DNA from: Ulota crispa
Lineage: Eukaryota; Streptophyta; Bryopsida; Orthotrichales; Orthotrichaceae
Reading direction: 5' to 3'
Length of the DNA stretch: 64,000 nucleotides
Assembly: GCA_963920765.1 (NCBI GenBank)
Contig: OY987248.1
Coordinates: 12,930,539 to 12,994,538, forward strand
How positions within the stretch are numbered: the stretch's first letter is position 1; each line of letters begins with the position of its first letter. Below are positions 40,001-63,518 of the stretch, one piece after another. The notes under the pieces are model-generated. The model saw only the letters and a program-made list of their open reading frames with translations, did no database searches and was not told the origin of the DNA. A program made the translations under genes and the position numbers.

Positions 40001-40087
40001 CCTTTAAGCGTCAACGAGGACAAAAATCGTCTCTGGGTGTACACGGGGCCCCGTGTTCCCACAGTGACCCACCCTGGCGCTTAAGGG
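40001..40087. mobile_element. Minimal P-family element, 87 bp
   Basis: The ends CCTTTAAGCGTC and GGCGCTTAAGGG are inverted, with intact TTAA on both sides (39997-40000 and 40088-40091). The GC-rich interior contains ACGGGGCCCCGTG, a perfect palindrome. It is the smallest member of the family in the window. Confidence 0.75.
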
Positions 40088-40534
40088 TTAAAGAACCCCT
40101 AAACATGACGCCATGTGGTGGATTGAACAAAAGTATGGTGACTTAGCAATTCCCAACAAAAAAAACCTGCTAAACTCTAAACAAACAAACCCCCTTAGGT
40201 TTTCCTTGGTTCTAGAATATGCTTGGGCACCTTCATTCTTCCCGGAGAGTGGCCAAAGTGCCGTTGCGTATGATGCTTTATGGGTGCTACAGGAAAAGTA
40301 AGTTCTTCCACCTGTCGCCATGCCGAGGAATGAGATTAGCCACAGCCCACAGGCCACAGGTCCACAACCGTACCTCCCACTTGGCTTTTCCGTTGCGAAC
40401 CAGCAGGATCTCTCACTCAACCGACAACTAACGGTACCGGGAAATTGCCACGTGCTGAGCATTATCCATGTGTACACTGCGAATGAGATTCAGAAGTAGC
40501 TAGTCGTGCGTACTGCGTAGCTCACCGCCCCTTA

Positions 40535-40919
40535 GAGCATCTCCACCGGCTGATTTCAGCTGGGGTATGGCGAGGCTGGAAGCCACTTTTTGAATTTTCA
40601 ATTTTTACCAGTGTCTCTGTCTGCTCAAACCACTCATCGGCTTCACCAAGTTGGGCTCCGGGCACGGGGAGCTCCCAGGCTAGAAGATGTTTGTAACGCG
40701 CTGAAGTTCCGCTATTTACCCGAAAGTGAGTGCGTGACGACAAGATGCTGGAGTACGTGATTCGTTGGGGCCCTCTTTTCTGGCCGAAGATCCCACTCTT
40801 GAAGCCTACAATGTGTGCACCAATGGAGATCTAGACACAAGCCCGGCCATAGTCGCCTCCCCGGCCCCTAGCAGCAACCTCTAGCGAGTCACCATTTGGC
40901 CGGTCCGGTGGAGATGCTC
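40535..40919. mobile_element. Family F inverted-repeat element, copy 1, 385 bp
   Basis: The left end is GAGCATCTCCACCGG and the right end is CCGGTGGAGATGCTC, with TTA as target duplication (40532-40534 and 40920-40922). The interior is GC-rich relative to its surroundings and has no recognised gene. TTA duplications are typical of Harbinger-type elements; that assignment is inference. Confidence 0.85.
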
Positions 40920-40923
40920 TTAA

Positions 40924-41691
40924 CCCCTGAGTGCCCCATATATTGCCTCCTACTATTTTTAATCCGTGTTTTGAGGGACTAGATCTTACTTTTTGGTCTT
41001 ACTTTACACTACAATTATGAAGGCATTCAAGTTGTCCATGTCAATGGAGTAATGGCAAGGAAAGCCAAATATTATACAAGTGCTACAAGAGATTTGATTG
41101 GGTGAAAACATCATATGGGGAGTGGTGGCACCGTATGAGGGGTGCTGGCAAGTAGCGTTTTACAGGCTACAATTGGTCCATATCCCTTGCAAGCTTCCTT
41201 GTGTAAGCTTTATGGTAGCGGGAAAGTTGTCGGCAAGGGTTCAAGCATGTTCTAAACCCTTATTGTGGCAACCGTCATCGACTATGCCGGTCATTGTTTT
41301 CTGAGCAATAGCCATTTGAAGCCCTAAAACTTGACATAAAAAGAATCGCAATCTTCAATAATTTACAAGTGTGTGTGTTCACATCTACTCTTAGTGCTCA
41401 GAAAATTTGAGATGAATCCAGGGCTTATAGAATTTTGTAAAAATCATCAAATAGCAACTATCTGGCAAAAAATGAGACTTTGTCATCACATGTTGTTTGA
41501 TCAAATGTTATAATCTCCCATCTCATGTGTTAAATTGTTCCCAAAATTTGCAAACCATTTTCTAAGTAGGTGCTCCACTACTTTCAATGGTCACTTTTTG
41601 TGGATCATCTGATTGACCAAGATACAATGCATCAAAGTGGTTGGTCTCCAAAAACCCTGGTTTTTGTGAAAATGGCATGGGCACTCAAGGG
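40924..41691. mobile_element. P-family element, first of a chain of three
   Basis: Left end TTAA then CCCCTGAGTGCCCC; right end GGGCACTCAAGGG then TTAA (41692-41695). About 770 bp of interior aligns closely with the third element of the chain (CAAGTTGTCCATG, TTGATTGGGTGAAA, GACTATGCCGGTCATTGTTT). The plus-strand frame at 41098-41304 is an internal accident not kept in the other copy. Confidence 0.85.
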
Positions 41692-41695
41692 TTAA

Positions 41696-41935
41696 CCCTT
41701 GAGCGCCCAAGTGGCCAAAATATGGCCTCTTGGTTTTGAAAAATGTCCACGTTTGACTCTTATCCTCTTCTTAATGGTAAAGTCAAAGGACTTGTACTTT
41801 TTCATGTACCTCCAGGCATGTGTCTACTACCACTCAAAAAAATTCAAGCTATTTGACTCTACTTAGGTAATACTTTTATTGGACTAAGTACACAAGGGTA
41901 TGGATTTGAGTGAATATGGCGTGGGTGCTCAAGGG
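41696..41935. mobile_element. P-family element, middle of the chain, 240 bp
   Basis: The left end CCCTTGAGCGCCCAAGTGG and right end GCGTGGGTGCTCAAGGG are bounded by TTAA at 41692-41695 and 41936-41939. Both TTAA sites are shared with the neighbouring elements, so the three stand directly end to end. The interior is unrelated to its neighbours. Confidence 0.85.
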
Positions 41936-41939
41936 TTAA

Positions 41940-42695
41940 CCCTTGAGTGCCCTAGAGATAGTATATTGTCTCTGGGGATTGGAAATGCTTATTTTAGGAA
42001 TTGGATTTACTTTTTTTTATCATGTTTTAGACTAAAGTTATGAAGGCATTCAAGTTGTCCATGCAATTGGAGTAATGGCGGGGAAAGTCAAATGTTGTAT
42101 AAATGCTGCAAGAGATTTGATTGGGTGAAACACCATATGGGGAGTGGTGGCAAGTAGCATTTTACTGGCTGCAATTGGTCAATATCCCTTGCAAGCTTCC
42201 TTCTGTGTGCTTTGCAGTAGCAGGAAAGTTGTTGGCAAGGGTTTAAGCATGTTCTAGACCCTTATTGTGGCAACCGTCATCGACTATGCCGGTCATTGTT
42301 TTCTGAGCAATAGCCATTTGAAGCCCTAAAACTTGACATAAAAAGAATTGCAATCTTCAATAATTTACAAATGTGTGCGTTCACATCTAATCTTAGTATT
42401 CACAAAATTTGAGATGAATCCCGTGCTTATAGGATTTTGTAAAAATCATCAAATAGCAACTATCTGGCAAAAAATGAGACTTTGTCATCACATGTTGTTT
42501 GATCAAATGTTATAATCTCCCATCTCATGTGGTGAATTGTTTCCAAAATTTACAAGCCATTTTCTAAGTAGGTGTTTCACTATTTTCAATGGTCAATTTT
42601 TGTAGATCATCCAATTGATCGAGACACAATGCTTCAAAGTTGTCAATCTGCAAAAATTCTGATTTTTTGGTGAAAATGGCCTTGGCGCTTAGGCG
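41940..42695. mobile_element. P-family element, third of the chain
   Basis: The left end CCCTTGAGTGCCCTAGAG and right end GGCCTTGGCGCTTAGGCG are bounded by TTAA at 41936-41939 and 42696-42699. It is a diverged sister of 40924-41691. Non-coding. Confidence 0.85.
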
Positions 42696-42699
42696 TTAA

Positions 42700-43270
42700 G
42701 TATGCAGTTCCTTTTGCAGACTGGATCCTCCCAATGCTGACGCAACTCCTGTCCCATATTCAAACATGATAGTAGAAGAATGTGATTACTTGCAAGTTGT
42801 TGCCGGGAAATTGCAAACTATCACAAGCAACGTGTCACTCCATCAGCAAACATAATGTGCACTAGGAAACAAGTAGGGGCACGGGGAAATGAGAAAATAT
42901 GCCACCTGAGGAGGTGCTCTAATGGGACCAGGTCTTACTTTTCCATTCCAGTGTTGACATTGAAACCCTAGAAACCTCAAAACCTCAAAACCTCTAGCTA
43001 AAGTGGCCCCCACCAAGCAAAATGCAAACCCATCTCTTTCCCAGTGTACACATTGATGAAGCTCTAAGATCATTGTTGTGGGACTGTGGGAGTTAGTGGG
43101 ACTCACCTCTCTTCCATGTTTCATGGCCTTGCTTGCTGAGGTGCTGATTGTCCAAACCTGACTTTCCTCAAGTGCGTCTCTCTCGTTTTTGAAAGTCCGA
43201 TCTGGCAGTTTGCTATGGAATTGTGTGCTATGGACAAGATTCTCATGAAGAGGATGAAAAACGGATGACA
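42700..43270. other. Moderate-GC stretch without a recognised gene
   Basis: A minus-strand frame of 142 codons (42843-43271) is open but has no domain, no conserved motif and low-complexity turns; its end abuts the family E element. I cannot support it as a gene. Confidence 0.35.
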
Positions 43271-43272
43271 CT

Positions 43273-43460
43273 AGGGGGTTTCAGATATCTCAAAAAATGG
43301 ATGAACAAATGGACGTGAACAAGTTTTTGTTCACTGCAGTGAACGTGCTATCACAACTTCTGGAGGTTGTCATGGCTTGTTCACTCCGGTTGTCATGGCT
43401 CATTCACTCCGATTGTTCACAAATCTTCTTCACGTGAACAATTAGATAATTGAAGCCCCT
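43273..43460. mobile_element. Family E inverted-repeat element, short form
   Basis: It starts AGGGGGTTTCAGATATCTC and ends TAATTGAAGCCCCT, with the 3-bp target duplication ACT (43270-43272 and 43461-43463). The interior has the family words GTTCACTGCAGTGAACGTG and CACGTGAACAA. Non-coding, 188 bp. Confidence 0.85.
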
Positions 43461-44059
43461 ACTATGTTGTAAGTGTAAACTGGTGAGCCATGAGTCCATG
43501 ACCTTTGAGCCCAGTTTTCATGAGGCGTGAGCCAAGATTTCATGAGCCGGCTCATAATCAATGAAAAACTAAACTACGGGCTAGTGATGAAAATTTAAAA
43601 TACACAATTATAGGGCCTCATGAACACAATTTTAGATGAAGTTTAGTCTTCTAACCAAAAAAAACCTAGGCTCACGCAACTCACGCTCTCTACTCACAAT
43701 GCATTATTCCCTAATGGAAGACCACCAAGTTCCAAGGAATGGTGTCAATACTGGGTAGCCTTTAATGATTTGCACCTGCCTTGCACATGAATTCGGCGAG
43801 GAATTAGGTTTAATTTTTGTCACTTGGTCAAATTACCTTGCTCCGGAAATCTCAACAACCTTAGGAAATACCCAGCTTCAGATTTGCTTACTTTAGAAAG
43901 TTTTGAGTTCTAGTTTAGGGTTTAGGGTTAGCTAAGTGGGAGTTCCATTACAGATTTCTTAGCTTGTAAAATGATTAGTGGGCATCATGCTTGTAAACTA
44001 GCTCGGGTACTCACTTGTGGAACTGAGTATCCTTAGTTGATTATTAGGGTTCTTTTCAG

Positions 44060-44650
44060 TGGCGGTTAGAGTCTCACACAAGGGCGTTCTAACATTTAAG
44101 CCACAAGGAAGAACGGTAGAGCCCAAGTAATCAATAGCGCAAGTGTGCGATTGCCAGTACGTGAGGTCCTTTGTTTGCGTAAACGTTGCTTGAAGAAAAC
44201 ATTATCACATGTTTGGTAGCCAAAGTGAAGATAACATCATATTTGTTATAATGAGAGTATTTTAATGAAATGAGAGGTAAAACACCCGAAATTCAAAAAA
44301 ATATATGTTAGTTCAATGAAAGGTTTTAGGTCAATTTAGCTCAAAATCGAGCTAAATTAACATAACACCTTCCAACTTGACTTAAAATTGAAAAGTTTTA
44401 TGTCAATTTAGCTTGATTTGAGATGAAATCTCTCATTTTAATGGAAATCAATAATTTTGGTCAAACTCTAACAAATTTATTTTGAGAGGTCCCCATTCTC
44501 TCATTATAACAAATATAGTGTCAGTTACATAATGTAACACCTTTTTGCAATTTCTATTGTTATATTCACAAGTATAAGGGCAATTGAAAATGCCCAAGCT
44601 TTTGTTTAAGCAACATCTACGTGGCTATGAAGGTATTGACAAACCCATGT
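44060..44650 (+). repeat. Dispersed repeat, copy 1 (carries a family J insertion)
   Basis: It shares with 45545-45830 the order CTCACRYAAGGGC, TTTAAG, GAGATTGC or CGATTGC, AAACGTTGCTTGAA or AAATGTTACTTGAA, ACAAGTATAAGG or ACAAACATAAGG, and CAAGCAACAT. This copy is interrupted by the element at 44233-44522. Confidence 0.65.
44233..44522. mobile_element. Family J inverted-repeat element (related to family A)
   Basis: The left end AACATCATATTTGTTATAAT and right end ATTATAACAAATATAGTGTC are inverted; the outer bases resemble the family A terminus AACACCATATT. The related repeat at 45545-45830 lacks this insert, giving a paralogous empty site. Interior TTTAGGTCAATTTAGCTC and its partner extend the symmetry. 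Confidence 0.75.
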
Positions 44651-44938
44651 AAGTCCTTTTTTGCACCATCTATTATTTTTTTCCTCTTAAGAAGTAAAAA
44701 TTAGCATTCACTACATATTGATGACGTGGGCAACTTCTCTAAGTTTGGGGAAGAATCTTCTATCCAAAGATTACAATCTAACAACTAAATTTGACACCCA
44801 TTGTAGCAAAGATTGTGGCTCCATTGTTTGTTGTGATGATAAAGGTATTTTGAACTTGTCTTTGGACACATAGCAAGCAGCTATGTTTAAGGAGGCTCAA
44901 TTCTTATAGCATTGGCTCAGTTTTTGAATAAGATACCT

Positions 44939-45145
44939 AAGGTAGCATGTTCTAAAACCAATCGGCTTTAGGAACCCGTGACATTTTAGAATTATTCTCA
45001 TTGATGAGTTAGGTAGCCTTAGCAAAATGTTAAATTTACTTAACTCATCAATATGAGTAATAGATATTTCTTCTAAAATGTCACAGATTTCCTAGAGTTG
45101 ATTGATTTTAGAGCCTAATTATTTTTAGAACCTGCTACCTTACTA
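44939..45145. repeat. Family K hairpin, copy 2 (about 207 bp)
   Basis: An imperfect palindrome. The arms pair TAAGGTAGCATGTTCTAAAA with its partner near 45145, then GTGACATTTTAGAA, CATTGATGAGTTAGGTAG and so on. The core is shared with 24391-24604. The arms are the only structure seen. Confidence 0.75.
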
Positions 45146-45544
45146 CTCATACTCAAACTACCTCATTGTAGCTTCTCTAAATGCAAAGCCCTCCTTCCAT
45201 GTGGTCTAGAGCTAACAAAACGTAGTTACACTTCGTGATAAAGCCAAAGCTTCAATACTCTCTAAAATCATTTTTTTTAAAAGTCCTACCAAATGTTTCT
45301 GACCAAAGCACAGCACATCGTGAAGTTCTGCTTTATCCAATACCTACTTACAGGATGCTACAGTAAATAGTGCTTTCTTTAAAATAAGGAAATAAAACTA
45401 TAACAACTCATGTGTGTTAGCCCTCCTCAAAACAATTTGGTACTACAGAAGGCTTTTATACAGTGATTGTCAATATAACATTCACTCGATTAGTGTGACT
45501 GCGACCATGGGAGCTTTTGCTTACAAAAAATATTTGTTTTGGGT

Positions 45545-45830
45545 AAGATAAGCTTCACGTAAGGGCATTCTCACGTTTAAGTCACTAGTAACAGGGGCAG
45601 AGCTTGAGTAACTAGTGCTACAAACATGAGATTGCTCGTGCATGAGGCTCTTAGCTTGTGTAAATGTTACTTGAAAAAAAATTACCACTTGTCGTTTCTA
45701 TTGGCAAAAATGATGTTACAAATTGTAACAACACTCCACAAATTTTGTCATTACGTTCACAAACATAAGGCAATTAAAATTGCAAAAGTTTCTTGTTCAA
45801 GCAACATTTACAAATAGTTCATTATGCACA
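45545..45830 (+). repeat. Dispersed repeat, copy 2 (empty of the family J element)
   Basis: It aligns with 44060-44650 but runs through the insertion point without family J, at GGCAAAAATGATGTTACA. The plus-strand frame at 45626-45817 lies in this repeat and is not kept in the other copy. Confidence 0.6.
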
Positions 45831-45956
45831 TTGCTTGTACTAAACACCAAATAGTTGTACTTGAATTTTTGTAACCAAGAAACAAGTAAATATTAATAGT
45901 GTCATGAGGCTTATTTCAATAGTGTCAATTAAATGCAATGATTTTTGTCTGTATAT

Positions 45957-46215
45957 AACGCCACATTTGTTAAATTGGGAAAAAGCGTACAAAGTGGGAC
46001 TTTTGAAGGATTAAGGTGGTCACCTTAATCCGAACTCCAACAAAAAAATTTGGTACACGTGGCCACATCTGAGAGGAGAAATTTGCAAGGAAAAAAAATC
46101 TTAGTGGCTCAAACTGAATTTGATACCTTTGAATCCGATTTAAGGTGGCTTTTTTGAATTAAGGTGAGGTACAAAATGGTACCCAATATTTTCCCATTTT
46201 AATGAATATGGCGTT
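45957..46215. mobile_element. Family A inverted-repeat element, copy 5
   Basis: The left end is AACGCCACATTTGTTAAATT and the right end is CCCATTTTAATGAATATGGCGTT, flanked by ATAT (45953-45956 and 46216-46219). The internal AAGGTGGTCACCTT is the family palindrome. 259 bp, non-coding. Confidence 0.85.
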
Positions 46216-46818
46216 ATATGAAAATGTACAAACAACTGAGAATGAATCTTTCTTAGTCTTATAAGTCTTATCAAGTAAGAAGTTGAATAAAGATTGTAAC
46301 TGTAATGGCCTAACATGACTTTGTTTATGGTTACTTGTTAGAGAACATCAATTTTAAATTTTCAAGAACTCATACCAATATAATAATCAAGATTTGGCTA
46401 TTTTTCATTCATTGTTGTTATGCAAAATTACTCTAAGTAGTTTAGAAATGAACGTCAAACATTTTGAATTTTGCATGTAAATGTATACAGTGTTTTTGTG
46501 TTTTTGGATGTTTAATTAGTCTTATATCCAAATGAAGAGGAATAAGTCATTAGATTATTATGCTTACATTGCAATTTTTCTCTAAATAATCAAGATCAAG
46601 AAAAGAATTGTATATTCAAATATTCCATCAATGTGGCAAAGATAAAAGAATTAGTAATAGTTAGACTACAATCTACATTAATTTCAAAACTAGCAAATTT
46701 TGTTAAATTACCCATTTAAAAATTTGAGTTGGCACTTTGTTCAAAATAGTATACTATTGATAACAAAAGAGTCCTTTCTAGTCATACCAACTTTTTACAA
46801 ATTTTCTTGATAATTTAA

Positions 46819-47757
46819 CCCCTAAACCACAAATGTTTGTTCAACAATCGATTCAGGTAGGTTCCTATGAAGTCAATTTTTGGCGGATGTTTTTGAAATT
46901 TGGAGACAGGGTGCATACAATGAATGCCTTTGTGTGAAAAAAAAGAACTCTGATCAGATGCTCACATAAAAAGTTATGCTGGCCAAAAGAATTTGGGCAC
47001 CTTGGGCAATTTGGGCATCTTTGGAGAATCTTATGCTAAAATTGTCATCAACTTCTAAAAATTGGCATGTATGTTACCAATAAAATAAGGTGGAAAATTG
47101 TCAAAAAGAAAAAAAAATTGAGCTCACAACCCACAATCTAAGAGGAGTCAAACTTTGTTAACTATGTTTGGGCGGTTTCAAGAAAACATATTTTCTTCTA
47201 ACTTCAAGCCTTATTAACTTGCATTCCATAAATTCAAAGTTTTTGAAACCATTTCCACATATTCCAAATGTTTGCTTCTAACTTTTTACTATTCAGATTT
47301 CAAATAAAATACTTCTTTATTGCACAAGAAACTAGGAAAAAATGACCAATGTATTGCCAATTCACTGAACCTCCTTGAATTGCAAGGTGATTTAGAATAA
47401 GCTAGATTCTAGATTTGCTTTTGAAACTTTTCATGAGTGAACCTAACATCATATACTTGTGAATGGTCAAAAACCTTGTTTTTGTGTAGAGCAAAAAAAT
47501 TACTTTAGGAGAGCTCAAAATCTGCTAACCCTGTTTTGCAAGAATGAAAAAAAGTTGTTTTTCTCATTTCAAACATTTTAATCTTATAATCTACGCATCC
47601 AAATGGGCTGAATTTTTTGCACACATTTCCTTACTTACATATTATACTTCTGTATGGTTGAATCTCAAAAAAAAATCATTTTAAGTTTTAAAGACATCAT
47701 CCAAAAATAGCACTTTTGGTCTTATTTTTCTGTGCAACACCCTTCGCGCTGTAGGGG
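46819..47757. mobile_element. P-family element, 939 bp
   Basis: The left end CCCCTAAACCACAAATG and right end CTTCGCGCTGTAGGGG are bounded by intact TTAA (46815-46818 and 47758-47761). The interior has no recognised gene and differs from the other long P copies. Confidence 0.65.
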
Positions 47758-47761
47758 TTAA

Positions 47762-48383
47762 AACAAAAATCTTTTCATACAACAATAAACATATGTAATA
47801 TTGTATGATAGAGGAGAATGCATCTCTAAATAGTAACATAGAACTCAACCATATCTCTACTTGAGAAACTTAGGCTAACATTCAATTTCATTCTAGAACT
47901 TGCCCTATTAACTATCCAACTCTCTAGTTCTTTTATTCTAGAGCTGTTCCTTTATTCTTAAGGTGTAAAGGGACTTTTTCATCATTAACAATCAATATTA
48001 TGTTTCTCTACATAGTTTCAACAATCATTTGGAGAACTATTTTCCCTTGCTTGGGGAGATCACTTAGTGTACCCAAAGTATACCACGTATGGCAAAGTGA
48101 TCTTTTAACTCATATTTAATTTTTTTAAATTATGATTTCAACCTATGATCTTAGACATTGTTTAATCAGGACTAAAGGATTCTATTGCCAAAATCTTCAA
48201 TCCAAATAATATATTAAATGATTTTTAGAGAAGGTTGAAAAATGAACTAAAATGGCATGTTTTTCAATTCAAATATTTATAAAGAACGCATTTAGATGAC
48301 CATTGCATCAATATTCAAGAAATATATAATTTAAATAGAGTCTCATTTTTTATTTTTTTTGTGTAATTTTTTCTTATATAAAA
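47762..48383. other. AT-rich DNA without a recognised gene
   Basis: No open frame, motif or element end can be supported between the P element and the family H copy. Confidence 0.45.
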
Positions 48384-49121
48384 GGGTGATTGCAAGAAAC
48401 GGGTGTCCTACATTTTATCCTCTACCCCGGGCAACATGTTATAGGGTCATATCTTTTGCTTGAGAATTGGGATTGAGATGAAATTTTAAAAGAAGGTGGA
48501 GGTAGAAGTTATAGACGTTCACTAATTTTTGGGAATTTTTAAAAATTATTTTGGTATTTTTTGTAGGTTTTAGATTGCATGTCTACCTTTGCTATTTTGG
48601 TGGTATTCAGTACTACATTGGGTCATAAAATTTGAACTTGGGCCCACAAATCTGGGTAGAGCTTCATGAGATAAAGATACACATATCTATCGACTATTTT
48701 TTCAAGATTCCAATTTCTTTGTCTTGCACATTCACTCAAAGTGAGCATCCTTTCTCCCTCCATTAGTGAAAGACAAAAACAAATTTTCCAAAAGTAATTG
48801 CATTAGTTCAAGCCAATGAAGGAGATCAAAAATGGCTATTTTTTGTTTTATTTTTTTGATTTTTTTTGTTATTTTCTAAAAAGCAAGAAGGAAATTGTCT
48901 TTTTGTTGGTGATTTTGGCCCCTCTATTTTTGTGCATAACTTTTAGAATAAAAATTTTCTAAGTTTGAATTTTCACATGTATGCTACTTTAAGTGCTTTG
49001 CAAATTCCTTTTTTTTTTTTTTTTTTTTTAATTTTAATTCCACAAGTTCATAGTACTAAATAGTACTACCAATTTTAAGGGTGTTTGAGACAAAACTTTG
49101 AAGCGTTTCCTGCAACTACCC
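48384..49121. mobile_element. Family H element, copy 2, 738 bp
   Basis: The left end GGGTGATTGCAAGAAACGGG and right end CGTTTCCTGCAACTACCC are inverted, with AAAA on both sides. It aligns with 25153-25893 along its length. A poly-T run is near 49010. Non-coding. Confidence 0.8.
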
Positions 49122-49206
49122 AAAATAGGAGTGTGAAAGTTATTTTCAATTTTGTAGTGTATCCTTTTACTTCAAAAATTTGTAACTAATTATAATTAAA
49201 AATGTA

Positions 49207-51676: not shown

Positions 51677-51795
51677 GGGTATGTTCACACTTGGTGTTAG
51701 GAGGGATACTAGCAATATGAATGCAGTCTAAAAGCGTCTCCAAATGCATGTAATCTTTCTTTGCTACTATCACTCTACTAAGTGTGAACATACCC
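51677..51795. mobile_element. Family D miniature element, copy 2
   Basis: It is 119 bp, with ends GGGTATGTTCACACTTGG and AAGTGTGAACATACCC, and a 3-bp duplication TTC (51674-51676 and 51796-51798). It aligns end to end with 24722-24844. Confidence 0.85.
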
Positions 51796-51869
51796 TTCAC
51801 TTGAGTTGCAATCTTAATCCCTAAAGGATTGTGAGGACAGAATGTGTACTTAAAGTGAAAAACCTAAAG

Positions 51870-52805
51870 GACCGCGGCCTTTTTATGTGAATTTCAGTGT
51901 AAAATTGCCACTTTTCAAAGAGTGAGTAGAATAGAAAAAAAAAGCTTTTTTTTGGAAAATCCAATCGTAGGATCTTGGCCTAAACTATGGGAGGTACTTC
52001 TTGGGAAAAAATCAGCTCAATCTAAATGTTGAGGAGTGAGATATTTACATCCAAAGAGAAGAAAAAAGTTTTTTCTTTATTGCCCAAAAATTTCAGAAGC
52101 CTTTGACCATTGATAACCCAAAAAAATTACTCTACGCAAAGTTGGGGTTTTTTTTTATCATGTCCAAAACCAAGTTAGGTATGTGTGGGAGAATTTTTCA
52201 GATGAATTGGACATGTGGATCATACTTTGTAAAATCCTGCAATGCTGGAAGGTCTAGAATTTTACAAATAAACTAGGCAAAACTGGAGGATTTATGTAAA
52301 ATTTAGAAATTTGAATTACTTTGATCCAAAAGGTGAAAACCAAGGAATCTTAGTCTACTACAACTTGGAAAAAAAAAGTAAAAAAACAAGTACACAAAGA
52401 GCTCAAAAAAGTAAAGCAAAAAGTTGTACAAGGGGAAAAAGGAATGGAGGTTTGGGAGTCCCATACCTACCTGCAAACTAAAACTTCTCATAACTTTCAT
52501 CTCATCTATCAAAATTGAATAATTCAAAGCTTCCCAAATACATGAAAATCTAAAGAACCAATTTCAAAAAAAAATTTAAAAAAAATTCAATTTTTTTTTG
52601 GCTGCCCAATAGTCCCCTGTTTTTCAGTTATTCATGTATAACTTCTTCAATAAATGTCAGAATGAAGAAAAAATTACATTCCCACATAGATCTTTGAATT
52701 GCACACCTTCTATAAAAGTTTCAAAAAATCACACAGAGTAGTTTAGCCATAGGTACATGCCCAAAATCCCATTTGTCCCCCAAAGGGACAACGGTCCTTT
52801 AGGGG
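51870..52805. mobile_element. P-family element, long form, reverse orientation
   Basis: The right end TGTCCCCCAAAGGGACAACG, then GGTCCTTTAGGGG, is followed by TTAA (52806-52809). The left end is CCTAAAGGACCGCGGCC with a mutated TTAA. The interior is the reverse complement of 58960-59883 and 61819-62784 (AACTTTCATCTCATCTATCA, GTGTGGGAGAATTTTTC). Non-coding. Confidence 0.75.
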
Positions 52806-52809
52806 TTAA

Positions 52810-53107
52810 ATAAAACCTTATCAAATTACTATTTTTAGTAGTTTATTTTTTTGAAAAATTCTTTTTGAAGTTTAGATTTAGCTTCAACAATTTGATTTTG
52901 TAAATGATTGATTATGATTTTTCTATTCAAGATTTTTTGCATGAGTGTTCATTGCAATCTTGACTTCATGTAGTGTTGAGGGCTCTTGGGAATGAGCCTC
53001 AAACACACTAGATCTTTAAGAGAAATCACATTAGAAGTTCATCTAAAAAAATGTAGAGTGGATTTTGTAAAGTCATAAATTGATTGGAGCTATGCATGTT
53101 AAGCCCT
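52810..53107 (+). repeat. Dispersed repeat shared with 33430-34410, left part
   Basis: It follows the 33.4 kb repeat up to GGAGCTATGCA, where the palindromic P element begins. The alignment continues beyond 53834, so the repeat was split by that insertion. Confidence 0.6.
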
Positions 53108-53111
53108 TTAA

Positions 53112-53830
53112 TCCCTAAAAGACCAAAGTCCCCTCGGGGGACTTTTGGGATTTTGGGCAGGTACCTATGGCTAAACTACTTTGCGAGATTTTTTGAATCT
53201 TTTATTGAAGGTAAAGAATTCAAAGATCTACATGGGAATGTAATTTGTTCTTCATTCCAACATTTATTGAAGAAGTCAAAAATGAATAACTAAAAAAACC
53301 TGTTCTAGGGGCAGCCCAAAAACTTCTATAAAAATTGTATTCTTTTCAATTAAAAATCTGAATTAGGTTCTTTAGACTTATGTAGATGTGGGGAGCTTTG
53401 AATCATTCGGTTTTAATAGATGAGATGAAATTTATGAGAACTTTTAGTTTGCGGGTAGGTGTGGTTTTGCTTGAAACCACACCTACCCGCAAACTAAAAG
53501 TTCTCATAACTTTCATCTCATCTATTAAAACCGAATGGTTCAAAGCTCCCCACATCTACATAAGTCTAAAGAACCTAATTCAGATTTTTAATTGAAAAGA
53601 ATACAATTTTTATAGAAGTTTTTGGGCTGCCCCTAGAACAGGTTTTTTTAGTTATTCATTTTTAACTTCTTCAATAAATGTTGGAATGAAGAACAAATTA
53701 CATTCCCATGTAGATCTTTGAATTCCTCACCTTCAATAAAAGTTTCAAAAAATCTCACAAAGTAGTTTAACCATAGGTACCTGCCCAAAATCTCAAAAGT
53801 CCCCCAAAAGGGCCCTTGGTCCTTTAGGGG
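53112..53830. mobile_element. P-family palindrome: near-perfect 0.72-kb inverted repeat
   Basis: TTAA at 53108-53111 and 53831-53834 bound two arms of about 355 bp that pair almost throughout, centred near 53471 with a loop of about six bases (GTGGTTTTGCTTGAAACCAC). Each arm is the outer arm of the long P elements (CTACTTTG(C/T)GAGATTTTTTGA, CATGGGAATGTAATTTG); the unique middle is absent. Frames at 53084-53293 and 53386-53595 are by-products of the arms. A transcript through it would form a very long hairpin. Confidence 0.92.
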
Positions 53831-54319
53831 TTAACCTCATATTTTTTTGGTGACCAAGTTTTTAAATTTGACATGTGAATAGAAGATTGAAAGATTTCAA
53901 ATTACTTTCACAGTTTAACACCTTCCTAATCAAACATGTCTAGTTTGATTTTATACAATTACAATTCAAGAAGAATTGATACAATTTATCAAAATGTTGG
54001 CATTTTGTTCAAATTAGAGCAAATTTAAATTCCTAAAAGCTCATGAAATCCCAAGGTCCTTCACGGGTTAAAGGAAGTTTAGGAGTATAAATAACGCTAC
54101 TTTTGCTTATAACAATTGTTGCATTTGCTATGTGTTACAAAAAAATGTCCAATTTAGGCGAATTTGGAGTTGTAAGCAAACATTTCTATAGCATTGACTG
54201 TCACTAATTTGGGATTTGAACCCAACTTGTTTTAAGCAAGAATGTCCATTTTGCAATATTAGTGTTCTGCACAACAACAAACAAGCCACATTAACAATAA
54301 AAGTTAGTGTTTAAAAAAA

Positions 54320-54514
54320 TTGATTGGCAAGTTGTCATTTGATGTGCATGGAGCTCTTGATCTAGCTTTCGCCACTCCAAATAAACTCCAGCAAAATTCA
54401 GAGGAGGTTGTCAAAGTTAAGGCTAATCTTCAGAACTCTAAAGCATGTTCATCTTCAAAACTCCAAAGCATGCTTAATCTCATGAAAACTAAAGAATTGG
54501 GAAGTAAATGGTGA
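54320..54514 (+). other. Coding-like 64-codon open frame, unidentified
   Basis: The frame (GKLSFDVHGALDLAFATPNK, later SSSKLQSMLNLMKTKELGSKW) has better amino-acid composition than its surroundings. It continues a few codons upstream of its ATG. No domain is recognised. It could be a fragment of a captured or transposon gene; it lies next to the hAT remnant but on the opposite strand. Confidence 0.3.
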
Positions 54515-54564
54515 TTGGTGAAGAATGAAGATATTGAGGTGCTTGTAAATTATACATTGTCAAA

Positions 54565-54929
54565 GCCCATGCAACTAAATTACACATCCTCATGTCTGCC
54601 CTTTTAATCGCAGCTCTCCAAGAATTGATGGCATCCTTGTACGGAAAAGACTCTAAAATGTAATACTTCTAGCCAAACATTCTGGCCACAAGCTACAAAT
54701 GCTTGCCGAGTCAATTCTACTAGCAAGATTTTAGGAACTTTAGGTTAGAGAAACAAAGCTCATCTTCAATTGAGTCAAGTACCATGGAGCACCTAATCTT
54801 GGCTAGCTTAAAGTACTCTGAAATGAGCTTAGCCAAATGCCTTGACTCAGACAGTTTCCTCCAAAGTTTAACAACCAATTTGATGCTGAATGGTGGATTG
54901 TAAGCTGCCTCACAATGTGCTCTCATCAT
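54565..54929 (-). pseudogene. hAT transposase remnant (C-terminal dimerisation region)
   Basis: In one minus-strand frame: HLAKLISEYFKLAKIRCSMV, then LDSIEDELCFSNLKFLKSC, then after several stops LGKHL, LVARMFG and KYYILESFPYKDAINSWR. This follows the hAT-type dimerisation segment (V.GSVEDERTFS.L.F.KS.LRN.L..HL..V.RMF) seen in many plant BED-finger/hAT proteins. The frame holds in-frame stops from 54722 downward (TAG, TAG, TGA, TAG, TAG) and no frameshift, so it is dead. The N-terminal catalytic part is not seen, and no hAT terminal repeats or 8-bp duplications were found. Confidence 0.65.
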
Positions 54930-55019
54930 AAGCTTAAAGAGCGCTTACTGATTGTCAAGGTTTGAAGAAGACAACCAATTTCCAAGGCAATATATGACCC
55001 CAACTGGCTGCCCTCCATG

Positions 55020-55175
55020 CCCGGGTAGATCACTCTATGCATTTATACAACCCACGTGTGGCGACAATTTGACCCCCTATATTATGTCCTAAAATTTAAG
55101 TAAAGGAAAAGAAAAAAATATGAGTAGATTTTCCTACTTTGAAAGTTTATGTTTTGAATTATTGATATTTTTTTG
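55020..55175 (-). repeat. Partner arm of the inverted duplication at 49207-49365
   Basis: Reverse complement of the 49.2 kb arm (ACTCTATGCATTTATACAAC, CCCCTATATTATGTCCTAAA, AATATGAGTAGATTTTCC). Confidence 0.8.
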
Positions 55176-56270
55176 AAATGTCAAATCCATCTCAATCCAT
55201 CTAAACTACAAAACATAACAACATAAAAAACTCACCTGAAATTCAAAGGATGAGTAACGTAAACCCAACAAAATTAGCCCAGTTTTATGCAAGAGATACC
55301 ATCCCAACTACACTAAAGAGAATTTGAACTTAGAGAAATTGAATAGACTTAGTATAAGCTCAATAGGCTCTCTTGAATACAACTCACTTAAGCCTAATGA
55401 AACCAGACAGATATAAGCCACATAACCCTAACAACACCAGCCAAATGAAACCCACATGAAACTTCAAACTCTTTGACAAAAGCAATGCTGGCTAGTAATG
55501 ACACAAATAGATCAACATAACAATACAACGGTTGTAGATAATTACAATAAACTCACTTTTGGTTAGAGAAACAAGCATAAAAGAACCCAAAGAAGGCCAA
55601 GCTATATCCCCAAACCCAAATGACTCTAATAATGTCCTAGGAAAATCAGAATTTGCATAAGCAACTTTTGGCACTCTAATTTAAACAAAACTAGCCCACA
55701 AAATCTCCACAGCTGCCACCACCACGTATGCCAAAAAAACAGTTTCTAAACATGAAATCGAGAAACCTAGCAAAACCAAATCAAAAAAACCCGCCAAACA
55801 TGACCTACACATGATCTAAACTTGCAAAACCGAAGCCATCCCAACGTCATTTTACTAACCTAGCCAAATTCAAAACAATAGATAAAACTTGAAAAACAGG
55901 ACAAGCCAACCAAGGCAAACTAAACAAAACCTGAACCATGAAATTAATTTGAATACAAACCACCGGCCAATCATCACATGGAAAAAACCTAAAAACACTG
56001 ATCTCAAGTGACACGCCCACCATAAACTCCAAAAACAAAGCACCATACTTGCAAGAGCAACAGCTAACAAACAAGAGCAAATCAAATTGGGCAAAATAGA
56101 ACTCAAACAACACTAGCCAAGCATGAAAAAAATTGAAATAGTCACAGCCATTGAAAACAAAAGCACCTGGACTTGCAAACCCAAAACACTACCGTACCTG
56201 CAAATTGTCGCTTGACATTCTCTTGAAGTCGGTTAAACTGATGTTGAATTACAAAAAGGAGTTTGCTAAC
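55176..56270. other. No gene recognised
   Basis: Moderately A/C-rich plus strand with repeated AACCTAGCCAAA-like words. Overlapping hydrophobic minus-strand frames near 55850-56110 come from composition and are not supported as genes. Confidence 0.35.
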
Positions 56271-56424
56271 CTGGTTGTTGTGCCAGAGTGCATACACTTG
56301 CTTGAACTTAAGGTTAAACATCAAATGTGAAATCCCACCATCGCCTGGCAGCTGCCTCCATTCCAGCAAGATATTCGTTGACTTGAGCGTCACTAATTCA
56401 TTGTATACTCTGAAGTCCGCATTG
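56271..56424 (-). other. Exon-like segment, unidentified
   Basis: Bounded on the minus strand by TTACAG (acceptor) and CAG|GTTAGC (donor). It encodes NADFRVYNELVTLKSTNILL, then EWRQLPGDGGISHLMFNLKF and more in one open frame, with coding-like composition. I do not recognise a family and found no adjoining exons. A captured gene fragment is possible. Confidence 0.3.
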
Positions 56425-57649
56425 CTGTAACAAGTAGATTTGTCAATAAAAAGTCGGGTAAGTTTAGCTTGGCATAATTTCAAGCTTGCAAGAAATTGCA
56501 GATGAAAATGTCGTAGACTGAGAGAGCTTAATGAGGCAGTGCACTGCATTCATCAATGAGACAAAACAAGCAAGCAATAAAAAAACCTTAATGTTGGTGG
56601 AGAAGTCAAAATTGGCGGCTATAGCGGCACTTGGTTTTTGGCTAGGTCTGCAAGCCATTAGCCACATCAACACCTGTCTTCACCAACAACGTCTTGTAAT
56701 CCAAGAGAACCCTTTGCGCTGGACTTTTCATAGAAATCCAATAAAATTACCTAAGATGAGATGTTTCAAAGCATCCGCACCCTTACAAACAGGCCCTGCA
56801 AGAGCATTTTGCATGCCTGCTTAGTTTGGCGCACCTCATCACACGCCAACACTATATGCAAGACAAGGCTTGCTCAATTGTAGCTCAAAAACGGGAACAT
56901 CAAGGGTTTGGTGAATTGTTAGTGCACGCGCCCAAATTCAAGACAATCAAATCTCGTTGGTTGGTCAACAATAGAGGCTTGCAATTGAAACTAGACACTT
57001 GCCCTTCGTGATATTCTTTTTAATTTTGCTCAAGGGCAATGGCCAGGTGCAGCATTTAAGATTTGAACAAGATTGTGGTTGTGGATGTGCCCTCAACATT
57101 TACTTTTGACATCTCTTGATTGCGTGCAACGGTGTAGATGCTCTAAAGTGGTGCTCAATCAAGAGAGCATTATAAAAAAAATGAAAAAAAATGAAAAAAA
57201 AAAACGAGCAGATAGAAAACTTCCATAATGCAGCATCTTTCAAACACACTCTCTTATTGCGCTGAGAAATAACAAAACCTCCTTAAAATTCTAGTCACTT
57301 AAATATCACACCATTCGAGATAGTATTGTTACGTTTACTACACTTTGCACTTATAATGCTAATTTGCACAAAACAAAAGTGAATTTGCCTCGGAATTTGC
57401 AAAGCACACTTGATAAAAAAGTTCACAAGAGCTTAACTTGATTGAATATAATGTGGGTTATAGTATTCAAATATTATGTGCAGCTGATATCCACCAATTA
57501 AAACGCTCGATTATAAGCTTCTTCATTCTCTCTGTGTAATTTCAAGTCATTCCAAGTATTTTTATTCTTGGGTTTTAGATGACCCAATGCTCAGCCACTT
57601 CTCCATCAGTACTTCAGTTTCTCAGTGTATGGAATATCCACATACAATA
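56425..57649. other. No gene recognised
   Basis: Short overlapping frames on both strands (for example 56531-56824, plus), none with a domain; an A-rich stretch is near 57178-57205. Confidence 0.35.
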
Positions 57650-58128
57650 GGGGCTTCAAATATCAACTTTTTTAGGTGACTCATGTTACAATTCACTTCT
57701 GTGAATTCACTTCTGTGAATTCACTTCTGTGAATTCACTTCTGTGAATTCACTTCTGTGAATTCACTTCTGTGAATTCACTTCTGTGAATTCACTTCTGT
57801 GAATTCACTTCTGTGAATTCACTTCTGTGAATTCACTTCTGTGAATTCACTTCTGTGAATTCACTTGTGAATTGTGAGGTGACTCACCTCCGGATTTCAC
57901 TCTTAACGTGATGCATATGAGGAGTGAATTTTGGAAACTCACCTTCGTGTCTTCTGGTGGCTCATTCACTTGCATCCTCAAATCCCGAAACTTCTTTCGC
58001 AAAAACTTCCGCAAACTCACGGGTGTTTCAAACTTTGCGGGTGCGAGGGAACAAAAACAATTCACTGGTGCCGGAGATCTAATGAGGTGAGAAGTTCAAG
58101 GGCCAGATTTCATGTTTGAAGCCCCCTA
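57650..58128. mobile_element. Family E element with an expanded 14-bp array (left member of a head-to-head pair)
   Basis: It starts AGGGGCTTCAAATATCAAC and ends TTTGAAGCCCCCT. The interior (GGTGAGTCACCTC, CATTCACTTGCATCCTCAAA, CTTTCGCAAAAACTTCCGCA) is the reverse complement of the neighbour at 58130-58457. The frames at 57908-58119 lie in this element and are not genes. The two members share the central ATT. Confidence 0.8.
57691..57858 (+). repeat. 14-bp tandem array, 12 perfect units
   Basis: Twelve identical copies of ATTCACTTCTGTGA in 168 bp. Each unit contains TTCAC-TTCT-GTGAA, a small inverted repeat, and the junctions form GTGAATTCAC. The sister element at 58130-58457 has one or two comparable words, so the array grew in this copy. 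It is not a CRISPR array: there are no spacers. Confidence 0.95.
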
Positions 58129-58129
58129 T

Positions 58130-58457
58130 TAGGGGGCTTCAAACATAAAATCTGGTCTTCAATATTCTCACCTCACAAGATCTCCGGCACCAGTGAATTG
58201 TTTTCGTTCCCTTGCACGTGCAAAGTTTGAGACACCCGTGAGTTTGCGGAAGTTTTTGCGAAAGAAGTTTTGAGATTTGAGGACGCAAGTGAATGAGCCG
58301 AGAGAAGCCACGAAGATGAGTTTTTGAAGTTCACACCTCACGTGAATCACGTTAGGAGTGAAGTCCAGAGGAGAGTCACGGCGAGGTTCATGAGTGAATT
58401 CACAAAGGTGAATTGTAACAAGAGTCACCTAAAAACGTTGATGTTTGAAACCCCCTA
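58130..58457. mobile_element. Family E element, right member of the head-to-head pair
   Basis: It starts AGGGGGCTTCAAACATAAA and ends GATGTTTGAAACCCCCT. The arms pair with 57650-58128 except for the 14-bp array, forming a palindrome centred at 58129. The minus-strand frame at 58168-58428 is the partner of the one in the left member. Confidence 0.8.
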
Positions 58458-58459
58458 AT

Positions 58460-58650
58460 ATGGGGTTTCAAATATGTTGTTCAATACAAATTTTGTTCAC
58501 ATGAATGAAATTGGTGAATAATCCAGCCAAGTCACTCTGTGAACAAGCCATGACAACCTCTTGAAGTCGTGTCAGCATAGTCACCGGTGAACAAAAACTT
58601 GTCCACGACCATTCATTCATCGTTTTATCTAGATATTTGAAACCCTTTAA
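58460..58650. mobile_element. Family E element, short form, adjacent third copy
   Basis: It starts ATGGGGTTTCAAATATG and ends AGATATTTGAAACCCTTTAA, with family interior words (GTTCACATGAATGAAATTGG, GGTGAACAAAAACTTGTCC). It follows directly on the pair at 57650-58457. Confidence 0.7.
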
Positions 58651-58707
58651 TATGAATGTCCACGTAAGCCAAATTTGCCTCCTGCACAATTGTTTAATAA
58701 GCACTAA

Positions 58708-58936
58708 CCCTTAAGCGCCCTAGTGACAGGATCTTGTTGTTGGGGCCCACAACTTCATCTCACTTTTTCTCTTAATTTTTACAATGAAAACAGTCATGTC
58801 CGGTCCCCATCAACAAAGAAGGTAGTCCATTTTCAAATCCTACGGTCACTTTTTTTGGATGTAATTTTCCAAGCTGTGGTGGCCATTAAACCCGCATTTT
58901 CTCCTAAATCCTAAAATAACTCTAGGAGCTGAGGGG
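58708..58936. mobile_element. P-family element, short form, 229 bp
   Basis: Left CTAA then CCCTTAAGCGCCCTAG; right TCTAGGAGCTGAGGGG then TTAA (58937-58940). The left TTAA has one change. The frame at 58723-58914 is internal and unsupported. Confidence 0.65.
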
Positions 58937-58959
58937 TTAATCGACAAACCAAAATTTAA

Positions 58960-59883
58960 CCCCTAAAGGACCATTGTCCCTTCAGAGAACAAGTTGGACT
59001 TTGGACATGTACCTATGGCTAAACTACTTTGTGAGATTTTCTAAAACTTTTATTGAAGGTGGGGAATTCAAAGATCTATGTGGGCATCTAATTTTTTCTT
59101 CATTCCGACATTTGACAAAGAAGTTATGCATGAATTTGTGAAAATTTGGATAAGACTGGCCATCCTTGCAGCCCAAAAACTTCTTTAAAATTTACTTTTT
59201 TTTAAAAATAGAAATTTGAAATTGGTTCTTTAGATTTTTTAATTCACGAGAAGCTTTGAATCATTCAAATTCAATCAATGACATGAAAGTTATGAGGCGT
59301 TTTTGTTTGCGGGCAGGTATGGATTCTCTACTCTAAAATAGACTTTGAAGTCCTTTATTTTACTCAATTTTCATTATTTTGGACAAAAAACTAAACCAAA
59401 GGAAGTAGATTGTTCATCAAAATATTATCACTGTTGGGATTGGCATTTTGCAATTCCGTAATTAAATTTTGAAAATTTTTGTGTTTTGACTCATTCTCTA
59501 CTTCATTTTACTTATTGATTTTCTCATGTGTTGTATAGTTCCAATTGATTTGAAAATTCTCCCACACATACCTAACTTGATCTTCTACATGGAAAAAACA
59601 AAGTGCAACTTTGGGTAGAGCAATTATTTGTTATAAGAGTGGTCAAAGGCTTCTAAAAGTTTTGGGCAGCATGGAAAAGAACTTTTTTTTTCACTTTAGA
59701 TGTATCTCACTCCTCTCCATTTGGAATGTGCCGATTTTTTCCCACCAGTACCTCTTTTAGTCTGGGGCAAGATCCTACGGTTGAATTTCCCAAAATCAAA
59801 ACATAAAATTCCTTTTTTCTAAACCTCCAAAAAGTGGCAATTTTTAATGATTTTGGCCAAAAAAGGGCTTGGTCCTTTAGGAG
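58960..59883. mobile_element. P-family element, long form, 924 bp
   Basis: TTAA at 58956-58959 and 59884-59887. Left CCCCTAAAGGACCATTGTCC; right GGGCTTGGTCCTTTAGGA. The outer arms match the palindrome at 53112-53830; the unique middle (TTCTCTACTCTAAAATAGAC, CTCCCACACATACCTAACTT) is shared with 36508-37431 and partly with 61819-62784. Non-coding. Confidence 0.85.
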
Positions 59884-59887
59884 TTAA

Positions 59888-60351
59888 AAAAGCAAAACAC
59901 AACGTCCATTCATTTCCAAATCAACGAATAAACAAATTTTAAATAGCAAGAACTATAATGAACATTCCCAAGCGTGGGAGCCTTTTAAATGAACCATGGC
60001 ATTATATTTTCTACTGTTTCATAAAACATAAGCCCAAATGATTAATGTGTTTCGAATATTCTCCCGAATGTCCCGGAAATGGCATTCTTCAAACGCCTAT
60101 GAAAAGCCGAGTGCTGCACTGCTGTGACGATTCTTCAGTCTAAATCTGCTATAGGAGGCCCAAATAGCGCAGATGAAATGGCCCTAAAGGCTTTGGGGTC
60201 CATGGTCCAAAGCCACGAATCCTTCGAGACTTGGGCCGTGATAGAAGAAACGGACCCTTAAAAAAGCCGGGCAGCCATTACATTTACATGCATTTCATGG
60301 CGAAACTGGCTGGAACTCATGAGGCAATTCTAGGGCCTGTGGAAAATCCAA
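59888..60351. other. No gene recognised
   Basis: Moderate GC, one 60-codon plus frame (60231-60413) that runs into the family F element; no domain. Confidence 0.35.
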
Positions 60352-60354
60352 TTA

Positions 60355-61612
60355 GAGCATCTCCACCGGTCCAGATTTGCTTAAAGTTTTCCATCTGGTT
60401 TGGCAAGGCATGAAGGCTTTCAATCTTCACCCATGTTCTTTGAAAAGGTGGCCTTACACTCAAACACGCCCATTAATGAGCAGTTGACCACTTATTTAGG
60501 GAAGTAGAGAATAAAGCTCACTAAACTTAAGGTGAATAGTGCATGAATAGTGGCTCGGAGGGTGACTTGTTAGACTTGCCAAAAAATCCCAAAATTCCTA
60601 GGGTCTTTATTTTGTCAAAAGACACTCAAAATTGTCATTTCTATTGCAAAAACTAAATTTTTTTGAAAATTGGTCTTTTTGCATATTTAACCGTTGGATC
60701 TTGTACTATACTAGTATAAGAATGTGGAAACAAAAATTCAAAAACTTTGACCGCACAAATTGCAAGATATTTGTATTCAAAGTGTAAAAAACAGACTTTT
60801 TTGCACCATGCATGACTAAACTATTTGACTTTGAACTTTTTTGACTTAAAATTTTTGCACCACAAAGTTTTGAGGTTTATTTTTGTATGGTGGGAAATTG
60901 AGTTAAGAATCTTTGGAAAAAATCAAAACAAAAAATACTTAATTTTCATTCTTAAATAAAACATTAGGTAGAAGAAGGTATGAGATTGAACAAAAACTTA
61001 AATTGTTAATAACCTTGCAATGGAATTGAAACTCAATAATCCCAATGGTGAGATTGTTCTAGCAAGCATACTTCACCCTCTCCAACAATTTTTTTGAAAA
61101 AATGTTAAACTTGCATTCAAAAATGAAGTTTATAAGTTATTTTTTCAAGAAGATGCTTGAGGTGCCCAAAAAACAAGATTGTCCATAACTTTCTCATAAC
61201 TAGTTCAAATGGAGTGGATCAAAGCTTCAGATGTAAACAAAACTATAGCCTATGACATAAAAAAACAAACAAAAAAAATTCACGTTTTTGCAAAAAAAAT
61301 TCAAGTTTTTGCAAAAAAAATTTGCTGTCCAATTTGCATAAATTTTTGCTTATCTAGGCATAGCTTTTGCTTTTGGGCATTGATAGGAATAAACATTATA
61401 TTCTCCAAAAGCTAATGTGTTTTCCTATCTTCAAAAAAGTTTTAAAAAATCAAGACAAAAATTGAGGCTGTAGGTACTTGCCCAAAATCCCATTTGTCCC
61501 CCGAGGGGGCACTCAGGGATTTAGGGGATAAGAGAGTTTGAGAGGGGCTTGAATGGGGCCTGCCTACTTTTCATCCACTTTGAGAGAGCCAGAGCCACCG
61601 GTGGAGATGCTC
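60355..61612. mobile_element. Family F element, long form, 1258 bp
   Basis: The ends GAGCATCTCCACCGG and CCGGTGGAGATGCTC match 40535-40919; the flanks are TTA and CTA. The interior is unrelated to the short copy. Near its right side it carries the end of a decayed P element (TGTCCCCCGAGGGGGCACTC, then GGATTTAGGGGATAA). No transposase is recognised. Confidence 0.75.
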
Positions 61613-61615
61613 CTA

Positions 61616-61800
61616 GGGGTTCAAATATCTCAAAAAAACGATGAACGAATGGTAATGAACAATTTTTTGTTCATTGGTGAATTTAATGTCACAACCTCTA
61701 GAATTTGTTATGGCTTGTTCATGGTGTGACTTGACCAAGCTTTCACAAATCTTATTCACATGAACTATTTTGGTGTAGAATGCCATAATTAAAACCCCCT
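61616..61800. mobile_element. Family E element, short form, abutting the family F element
   Basis: It starts AGGGGTTCAAATATCTC and ends ATAATTAAAACCCCCT, with interior TTGTTCATTGGTGAATTTAA and TTCACATGAAC. It begins within three bases of the end of the family F copy. Confidence 0.75.
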
Positions 61801-61818
61801 ATTATGTGGTTTATTTAA

Positions 61819-62784
61819 CCCCTAAAGGCCCAAGTGGTCCCTCGAGGGCCAATTGGGGTTTTGGGCATGTACTTATAGCTAAACTACTTTATGTAATTTT
61901 CTAAAACTTTTATTGAATGTGGGGAATTCAAAGATCTATGTGGGCATCTAATTCTTTCTTCATTTCAACATTTATTGAAGAAGTTATGCATGAATAATTG
62001 AAAAACAGGGAACAAGCGGGCAGCCCAAAAAAAAAAAGTTTGCATTTTTTTAAAATAAAAATAGGAAAGTGGTTCCTTATATTTTTATGTATGTGGGAAG
62101 CTTTGAATCATTCAATATCAATTAATGAGATGAAAGTTATGAGAAGTTTTTGTTTGCAGGTAGGTATTGGACTCCCAAACCTCCATTTCTTTTGCCCCTT
62201 GTAAAATTTGGTAATTTACTTTTTTGAGCTCTTTGTGTATTTGTTTTTTGACTTCTTTTTTTTTTCAAGTTGTAGTACACTAAAATTATTTGGTTTTTAC
62301 CATTTGGATCACAACAATTAATATTTCTCAATTTTACATAAATCTTCCAATTTTGCCAAGTGTATATGCAAATTTCATGGCCTTGTGGCATTGCAAGATT
62401 TTACAAATTATGATTCACACCTCCAATTTGTACAAAAAATTTCCCACACGTACCTAACTTAGTCTTTTACATGGGAAAGAAAATCTCAGTTTTGCGTAGA
62501 GCAATTTTTTTGAGAATTCTTTTGATATAGGAGTGATCAAAGGCTTCTAAAGTTTTTGGGCAGTAAGGAAAAAAGCTTTTTTTTTCACTTTAGATATCAA
62601 TATCTCACTCCCCTACATATAGAATGACCTGATTTTTTTCCCACAAATACCCCCCAAAGTCTAGGGCAAGATCTTATGATTGGATTTTAAAAAAAACCTT
62701 TTTTCCCTACCATTCTACTTATTCCCCCAAATGTGGCAATTTTTTAGTGGCTTTCACAGAAAAATGGGCTTAGGCCTTTAGGGG
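61819..62784. mobile_element. P-family element, long form, 966 bp
   Basis: TTAA at 61815-61818 and 62785-62788. Left CCCCTAAAGGCCCAAGTGG; right GGGCTTAGGCCTTTAGGGG, a near-perfect terminal match. The outer arms are shared with the palindrome at 53112-53830. Frames at 61998-62204 and 62137-62391 are internal and not conserved. Confidence 0.88.
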
Positions 62785-62788
62785 TTAA

Positions 62789-63514: not shown

Positions 63515-63518
63515 TTAA

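Follow-up and report, generated by a model that had tools for sequence, protein, structure and literature searches.

What are the many short repeats that stand between copies of TTAA and end in CCC in the genome of the moss Ulota crispa, and which transposase moved them? The question is raised by a 64,000-nucleotide stretch of contig OY987248.1 (C7:12930539-12994538; hereafter the window), in which an earlier note, made from the sequence alone, had seen at least thirteen such elements and had taken them, with no transposase in view, for miniature inverted-repeat transposable elements (MITEs) of a proliferating piggyBac family in a plant. piggyBac is the transposon best known from insects and bats, is a main tool in genome engineering and has been studied mostly through animal elements. 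Here, we analysed the window together with the rest of the genome (274.8 Mb in 157 contigs; L-numbers denote other loci of the same genome). We conclude that the window elements are almost certainly non-autonomous piggyBac elements, mostly without a gene, from several families within this superfamily, because they carry TTAA flanks and because transposase genes lie within ends of the same type. The plant host holds, narrowed to a moss: PF17538 (LEAFY) matches two exons at one locus, of which the larger, read from immediately after a stop at its edge, is identical at 102 of 104 positions to chain 4bhk_A (238.5 bits, against 171.5 for the runner-up), the LEAFY protein of the moss Physcomitrium patens, and the smaller at 60 of 61. 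Reading frames of malectin, P450 and BiP were less telling.

TTAA flanks and termini

In the window, 13 complete elements with CC(C/T)-type ends could be delimited, mostly flanked by TTAA, together with one that runs off the window end and several fragments. Variant forms of CCCCTAAAGGACC and CCCTTGAGCGCCC make up their termini; the 17-mer TTAACCCTTGAGCGCCC occurs only once as an exact copy, at 41692, the remaining ends being variants. Exact TTAA is found at 21 of the 26 flanks, a count in which flanks common to neighbours enter twice and which is biased, as the TTAA flank itself served to find most of the elements. The number of elements in the earlier note stands, and so does TTAA outside most of them. 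The non-TTAA flanks lie at 3979, 36505, 39067, 39613 and 58704, so some details given for single elements do not survive: the left flank is TTAG for 3979-4634 and CTAA for 58704-58940, the element at 36505-37435 has lost both TTAA and CCC on its left, and that at 39067-39613 lies between TGCA and TTAG.

Genome-wide counts on exact matches, unlike the window count, provide an unbiased test. Of the 851 exact CCCTTGAGCGCCC sites, 743 are preceded by TTAA, as are 8,154 of the 9,597 exact CCCCTAAAGGACC sites (85-87% of exact termini, searched as 13- and 17-mers), and reversed control patterns occur 0-3 times. Further, across 226 kb, made up of the window and 20 stretches chosen for holding the 17-mer, we counted 41 cases in which TTAA flanks an inverted CC..GG pair, some of the pairs overlapping, against 0 or 1 for each of nine other tetramers. 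The terminal inverted repeats (TIRs) are short, the inverted ends spanning about 13 bp, and begin with CC(C/T), the start expected of piggyBac in the available text of two earlier studies (PMC2872659, PMC10813416).

Transposase genes within the same ends

A search with PF13843 (DDE_Tnp_1_7, the piggyBac transposase family; 528 candidates, 116 scored) returned 120 matches genome-wide, the best with an E-value of 1.3e-73. Stops interrupt 110 of these, and ten run without a stop, introns not being modelled. We examined ten transposase loci, selected for high score and few stops, and in four of them a transposase gene is enclosed by TTAA and inverted ends on both sides: L031:67-5812 (5,746 bp, TTAA at each side, 13/13 TIR positions matching), L032:801-6108, L036:463-5489 and C7:11814404-11822436 (8,033 bp, read from L039 and L037). 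One end was recognised in L029, L030, L035 and L038, and none was assigned in L033 and L034. Insertion at TTAA can be read from two of the enclosed elements: that at C7:11814404 sits in a relative of L031/L018 with its TTAA duplicated, and the window MITE at 39067-39613 and a sibling of it provide an empty site for the L032 element, both carrying GTTTAACTT, with TTAA once where L032 has it twice.

The open pieces match PF13843 (P0001-P0004, E 4e-67 to 1.3e-47; three more, E 6e-61 to 3e-44). P0004, whose own locus L033 has no assigned ends, has as its best solved-structure match the piggyBat transposase of bats (9c0f, E 2.6e-24), a remote match confined to the catalytic part (query residues 10-349) in which its three catalytic aspartates are in register; it also matches piggyBac 6x67. 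The ten translated transposase pieces are 25-62% identical to one another, so several old transposase lineages coexist in one genome. Cys/His-rich tails, where piggyBac transposases have a cysteine-rich, zinc-binding C-terminal domain, can be made out by eye in the L031 and L037 translations. Directly after the gene, the transposase-bearing element in L037 holds a long microsatellite (L037:4373-4993, HTYI repeated).

The ends of these gene-bearing elements recur in the MITEs. Two small elements, L014:4467-5384 and L018:1366-2253, match the L031 element with 73-85% identity over its initial 115-135 bp and its final 550-600 bp, so that this MITE family is an internal deletion of the transposase-bearing element. 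Likewise, the C7:11814404 element matches window 52758-52810 with 85% identity over its first 54 bp and window 62752-62789 with 92% over its last 38 bp, and a right-type end at L038:1161, on the 3' side of the L038 transposase, shows 72% identity with window 62788-62324 across 465 bp. By these matches, the main window family (36505, 51814, 53108, 58956, 61815 and 63515) is tied to piggyBac genes through its ends. The gene that the earlier note had asked for, DDE_Tnp_1_7 with ends of the same kind, is found in four elements, and the note's piggyBac identification, inferred there from TTAA and CCC, is supported by them. The window elements are also MITEs in the usual sense, being short, present in high copy number, bounded by TIRs and target site duplications and derived from families whose parents were presumably autonomous. 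A piggyBac transposase encoded elsewhere would have excised them and inserted them at TTAA in trans.

Two other superfamilies of DNA transposons, Kolobok and Sola3, also duplicate TTAA, and the elements could in principle belong to one of these, with the piggyBac genes as unrelated neighbours. The duplication, common to these superfamilies, is what speaks for such an assignment; yet the L031 and C7:11814404 elements, whose termini are of the same kind, with TTAA and with subterminal sequence homologous to that of the MITEs, contain PF13843 genes. What lies between ends of this kind is PF13843 rather than a Kolobok or Sola3 transposase, in a comparison that covered no other transposase family and included no Kolobok or Sola search. 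We dropped both candidates as highly improbable.

A palindrome near one end

Many elements carry a palindrome after the TIR at one end. When the pairing score (the better of the two ends) was computed over 44 elements, a single sharp peak was obtained at bp 25.0, with a score of 3.89 against 2.49 ± 0.16 in shuffled sequence (z = 8.8); the next highest value was z = 3.0, at 25.5. The peak remains when each end-sharing cluster is represented by one element (14 clusters, 46 elements), with 4.28 at bp 25 against at most 2.97 at the other whole-base centres between 20 and 45. At least five of seven positions pair at bp 25 in 18 of 46 elements, compared with 1, 0, 1 and 1 at centres 22, 30, 35 and 40. 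The left-end palindrome of piggyBac from Trichoplusia ni (T. ni) is found at the transposase 5' side, and the higher score falls on that side in all four moss elements with a transposase gene between two ends (5, 7, 5 and 3 against 0, 2, 3 and 0).

For T. ni, the available text of the structural study describes a dimer of the transposase C-terminal domain bound to left-end bp 17-33, with the minor groove narrowed near bp 25 (PMC7351741), which is where the moss peak falls. As this position is that of the T. ni left end, though the sequence differs, we call the palindromic end of the moss elements the left end (LE). By analogy, the Cys-rich C-terminal domain of the moss transposase may dock as a dimer on the bp 25 palindrome as the T. 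ni enzyme does. The position of the palindrome offers a test of the structural model across kingdoms.

Several observations weigh against this picture of piggyBac elements with a T. ni-like left end. The z score of 8.8 is inflated by the kinship of the elements; the palindrome at bp 25 is clear only in the 18 elements mentioned, the other 28 falling below the mark, and one of the four transposase-bearing elements pairs at 3/7 at bp 25, its palindrome being centred, by eye, on 24.5. Among the ten loci examined, with introns not modelled, no uninterrupted full-length gene lies between two ends, and of these ten, chosen with a bias towards few stops, four had both ends, four had one and two had none assigned. 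A partner of the CCCTTGAGCGCCC family was not found: none of the 13 C1 transposase loci lies within 10 kb of an exact 17-mer, in listed coordinates compared by eye and within their listed span only.

Elements with two left ends

One window element breaks the pattern. The sequence at 53108-53834 can pair with itself along almost its full extent, with two 332-bp arms that are 97% complementary, LE-type termini at both sides and TTAA on each side; no strand can be given to it. It is inserted in a CCCCTCACC-family element (52830-54071, minus strand, outer limits inferred). An element of the same build and with the same inner junction, 77% identical, is found in another place (L025:2453-3191). A transcript of 53108-53834 would fold into a near-perfect hairpin.

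The pattern of the inner junction has 108 matches per strand genome-wide, against none for the control. The 100 rows listed fall at 77 places, of which 23 are matched on both strands, and the junction is thus present in at least 108 places, or about 166 by extrapolation. We sampled the first 20 places, that of L025 excluded, fetching 500 bp per side and allowing two mismatches in a TTAA-containing 12-mer in the search for ends. An end pair was obtained in 17. In 16 of these, LE-type ends bound a dimer of 705-817 bp on either side, L047 being the exception; L045, L055 and L058 gave no end pair within the fetched flanks. Neither the two elements described above nor these 16 sampled loci have the one left and one right end that is the rule in T. 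ni. Exact TTAA stands on both sides in 13 of the 20 places; L048 has TTCA and TTAA, L049 has ATAA and TTAA, and the L053 dimer has CTAA on both sides, a possible insertion at a non-TTAA target. In the 16 dimers the arms are 81-97% identical; identity among the 17 sequences with an end pair, counting L047, runs from 75 to 94%, with a median of 81%.

These data are most simply read as the spread of an LE/LE element through transposition. The copies might instead have arisen through repeated inverted duplication of ordinary elements, or through segmental duplication. Such an origin would suit the closeness of the window arms (97% complementary) beside copies that differ by 6-25%, and arm conversion or re-formation may occur. 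One and the same inner junction in at least 108 places, printed flanks that differ in all 16 dimers, and the exact TTAA pairs just described tell against it, and we regard it as improbable.

If the LE/LE elements did transpose, a second left end would have replaced the right end (RE) in an inverted dimer, and its kind nevertheless spread to at least 100 sites. In T. ni, according to the available part of the structural paper, a construct with two 35-bp left ends (LE35/LE35) is inactive with the wild-type transposase in human cells, shows weaker activity with a hyperactive enzyme and is active in vitro (PMC7351741). The moss elements could therefore have moved only because the inner sequence of their arms supplies right-end binding sites, in which case the T. 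ni asymmetry would hold in substance. In the T. ni experiment the left ends were 35 bp long, and the moss arms are about 360 bp, ten times that length, so that an inner site may substitute for a right end; we take this to be a serious possibility, if somewhat short of an even chance. On balance, we lean slightly towards the view that a two-left-end piggyBac reached at least 100 TTAA sites in this moss, that LE/RE asymmetry is not a general rule and that a symmetric synapse is workable. Two left ends with long arms would then suffice in this lineage. LE/RE asymmetry is, in our reading, a property of T. ni piggyBac and no defining feature of the superfamily. Why the ends need to be asymmetric is a question that the structural paper, in its available part, calls enigmatic (PMC7351741), and the amplified LE/LE elements have a bearing on it.

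Matched pairs of the other element families differ by 8-32%. Given this spread and the 6-25% among LE/LE copies, the sampled bursts were not very recent. The earlier note had spoken of a proliferating family. Present activity is unproven: the copies are diverged, 110 of the 120 matches to the transposase contain stops (introns not modelled), and no copy examined proved intact and autonomous.

Comparison with known systems

The moss elements share with T. ni piggyBac, as presented in the available text of PMC7351741, the TTAA target, a DDD transposase of the same family and a palindrome near the left end. They differ in their moss host, in the length of the transposase-bearing elements (5-8 kb, with nested insertions in two or more), in the number of diverged families, several of which coexist and together supply MITE ends by the thousand, and in the amplification of an LE/LE derivative of a kind that, with the wild-type T. 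ni enzyme, is inactive in human cells.

The nearest analogue, in so far as the accessible text of PMC2872659 describes them, is the piggyBac MITEs of corals (CMITEs), which likewise have TTAA, CCCTT-type termini and linked transposase-bearing elements, and for which tandem arrays are reported. The coral host is an animal; the moss arrays have one TTAA common to neighbours, and symmetric left-end dimers like those of the moss do not appear in the accessible coral text.

Among land plants, two annotation papers (PMC6890710, PMC4438587), in the parts available, give 1,230 PiggyBac fragments (0.00%) for the C-fern assembly and list PiggyBac among the superfamilies present in all groups studied. 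These are trace or tabulated presences, whereas the moss has thousands of structurally defined ends and linked transposases. We found no report of piggyBac in mosses in the literature searched, which mostly excludes subscription journals. PF13843 had no match in 14 control genomes, in which LEAFY had none either, so that they seemingly include no land plant and are uninformative on other plants. With its thousands of ends and its several lineages of transposase, this moss genome provides a plant branch of the piggyBac superfamily.

Elements of the window

The remaining elements are given here with their strands. The left part of the window holds a piggyBac MITE with CCCCTCAC(C/T)GCCC ends (3979-4634, minus), with TTAG on the left, TTAA on the other flank and its LE, at 4634, resembling by eye that of the transposase-bearing L036 element. 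Its TTAG is common to a MITE related to L017:8123-8356 (3759-3982, unoriented, left limit not fixed). The CCCCTAAAGG-family MITEs are those at 36505-37435 (plus; left TTAA and CCC decayed; 78% identical to 58956-59887), 51814-52809 (minus; LE at 52809, which is the end matching the 5' end of the C7:11814404 element), 58956-59887 (plus) and 61815-62788 (plus; its right end is the one matching that element's 3' end and L038), followed by the LE of a further member that continues beyond the window (63515-64000, plus). The MITE with decayed flanks at 39067-39613 is placed on the minus strand after its relative L021:7156-7703.

A cluster of plus-strand MITEs lies in the middle, comprising an 87-bp MITE between two TTAA (39997-40091), a MITE at 40920-41695, a 240-bp CCCTTGAGCGCCC MITE (41692-41939) and a MITE 86% identical to the second of these (41936-42699). 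Also on the plus strand are a MITE related to L022:2993-4251 (46815-47761), which the earlier note had not singly named, and one of about 230 bp (58704-58940), with CTAA on its left and TTAA on its right.

Neighbouring elements have a single TTAA in common at 41692-41695 and 41936-41939, so that the 240-bp MITE has each of its TTAA in common with a neighbour, and TTAG at 3979-3982; the same arrangement is seen at L018:1366-1369 and L022:4248-4251. Such joints could suggest that new elements prefer the TTAA beside older ones; we make no claim of this, as the exact joint of the CCCTTGAGCGCCC family exists at only three places genome-wide and chance joints are expected at such density.

Matches to 29 library elements taken from other loci cover 13.1% of the window, and the window elements cover 8.9% of 119 kb from 14 other loci (selected seed excluded), five of which have none; both are local figures and no genome estimate.

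Between two piggyBac MITEs, at 62786-63514, stands an inverted-repeat element with relatives in L031, L008 and L022. Ends of the GAGCATCTCCACCGG type occur at 40533-40921 and 60354-61614, like those of other plant MITEs. At 57690-58414, a 14-bp tandem repeat is followed by a second inverted repeat of the window, of 285 bp with a 1-nt gap and unrelated to the first. Outside the window, L018:7751-10000 contains a coding region for BiP, the endoplasmic reticulum Hsp70, with no introns in the stretch seen.

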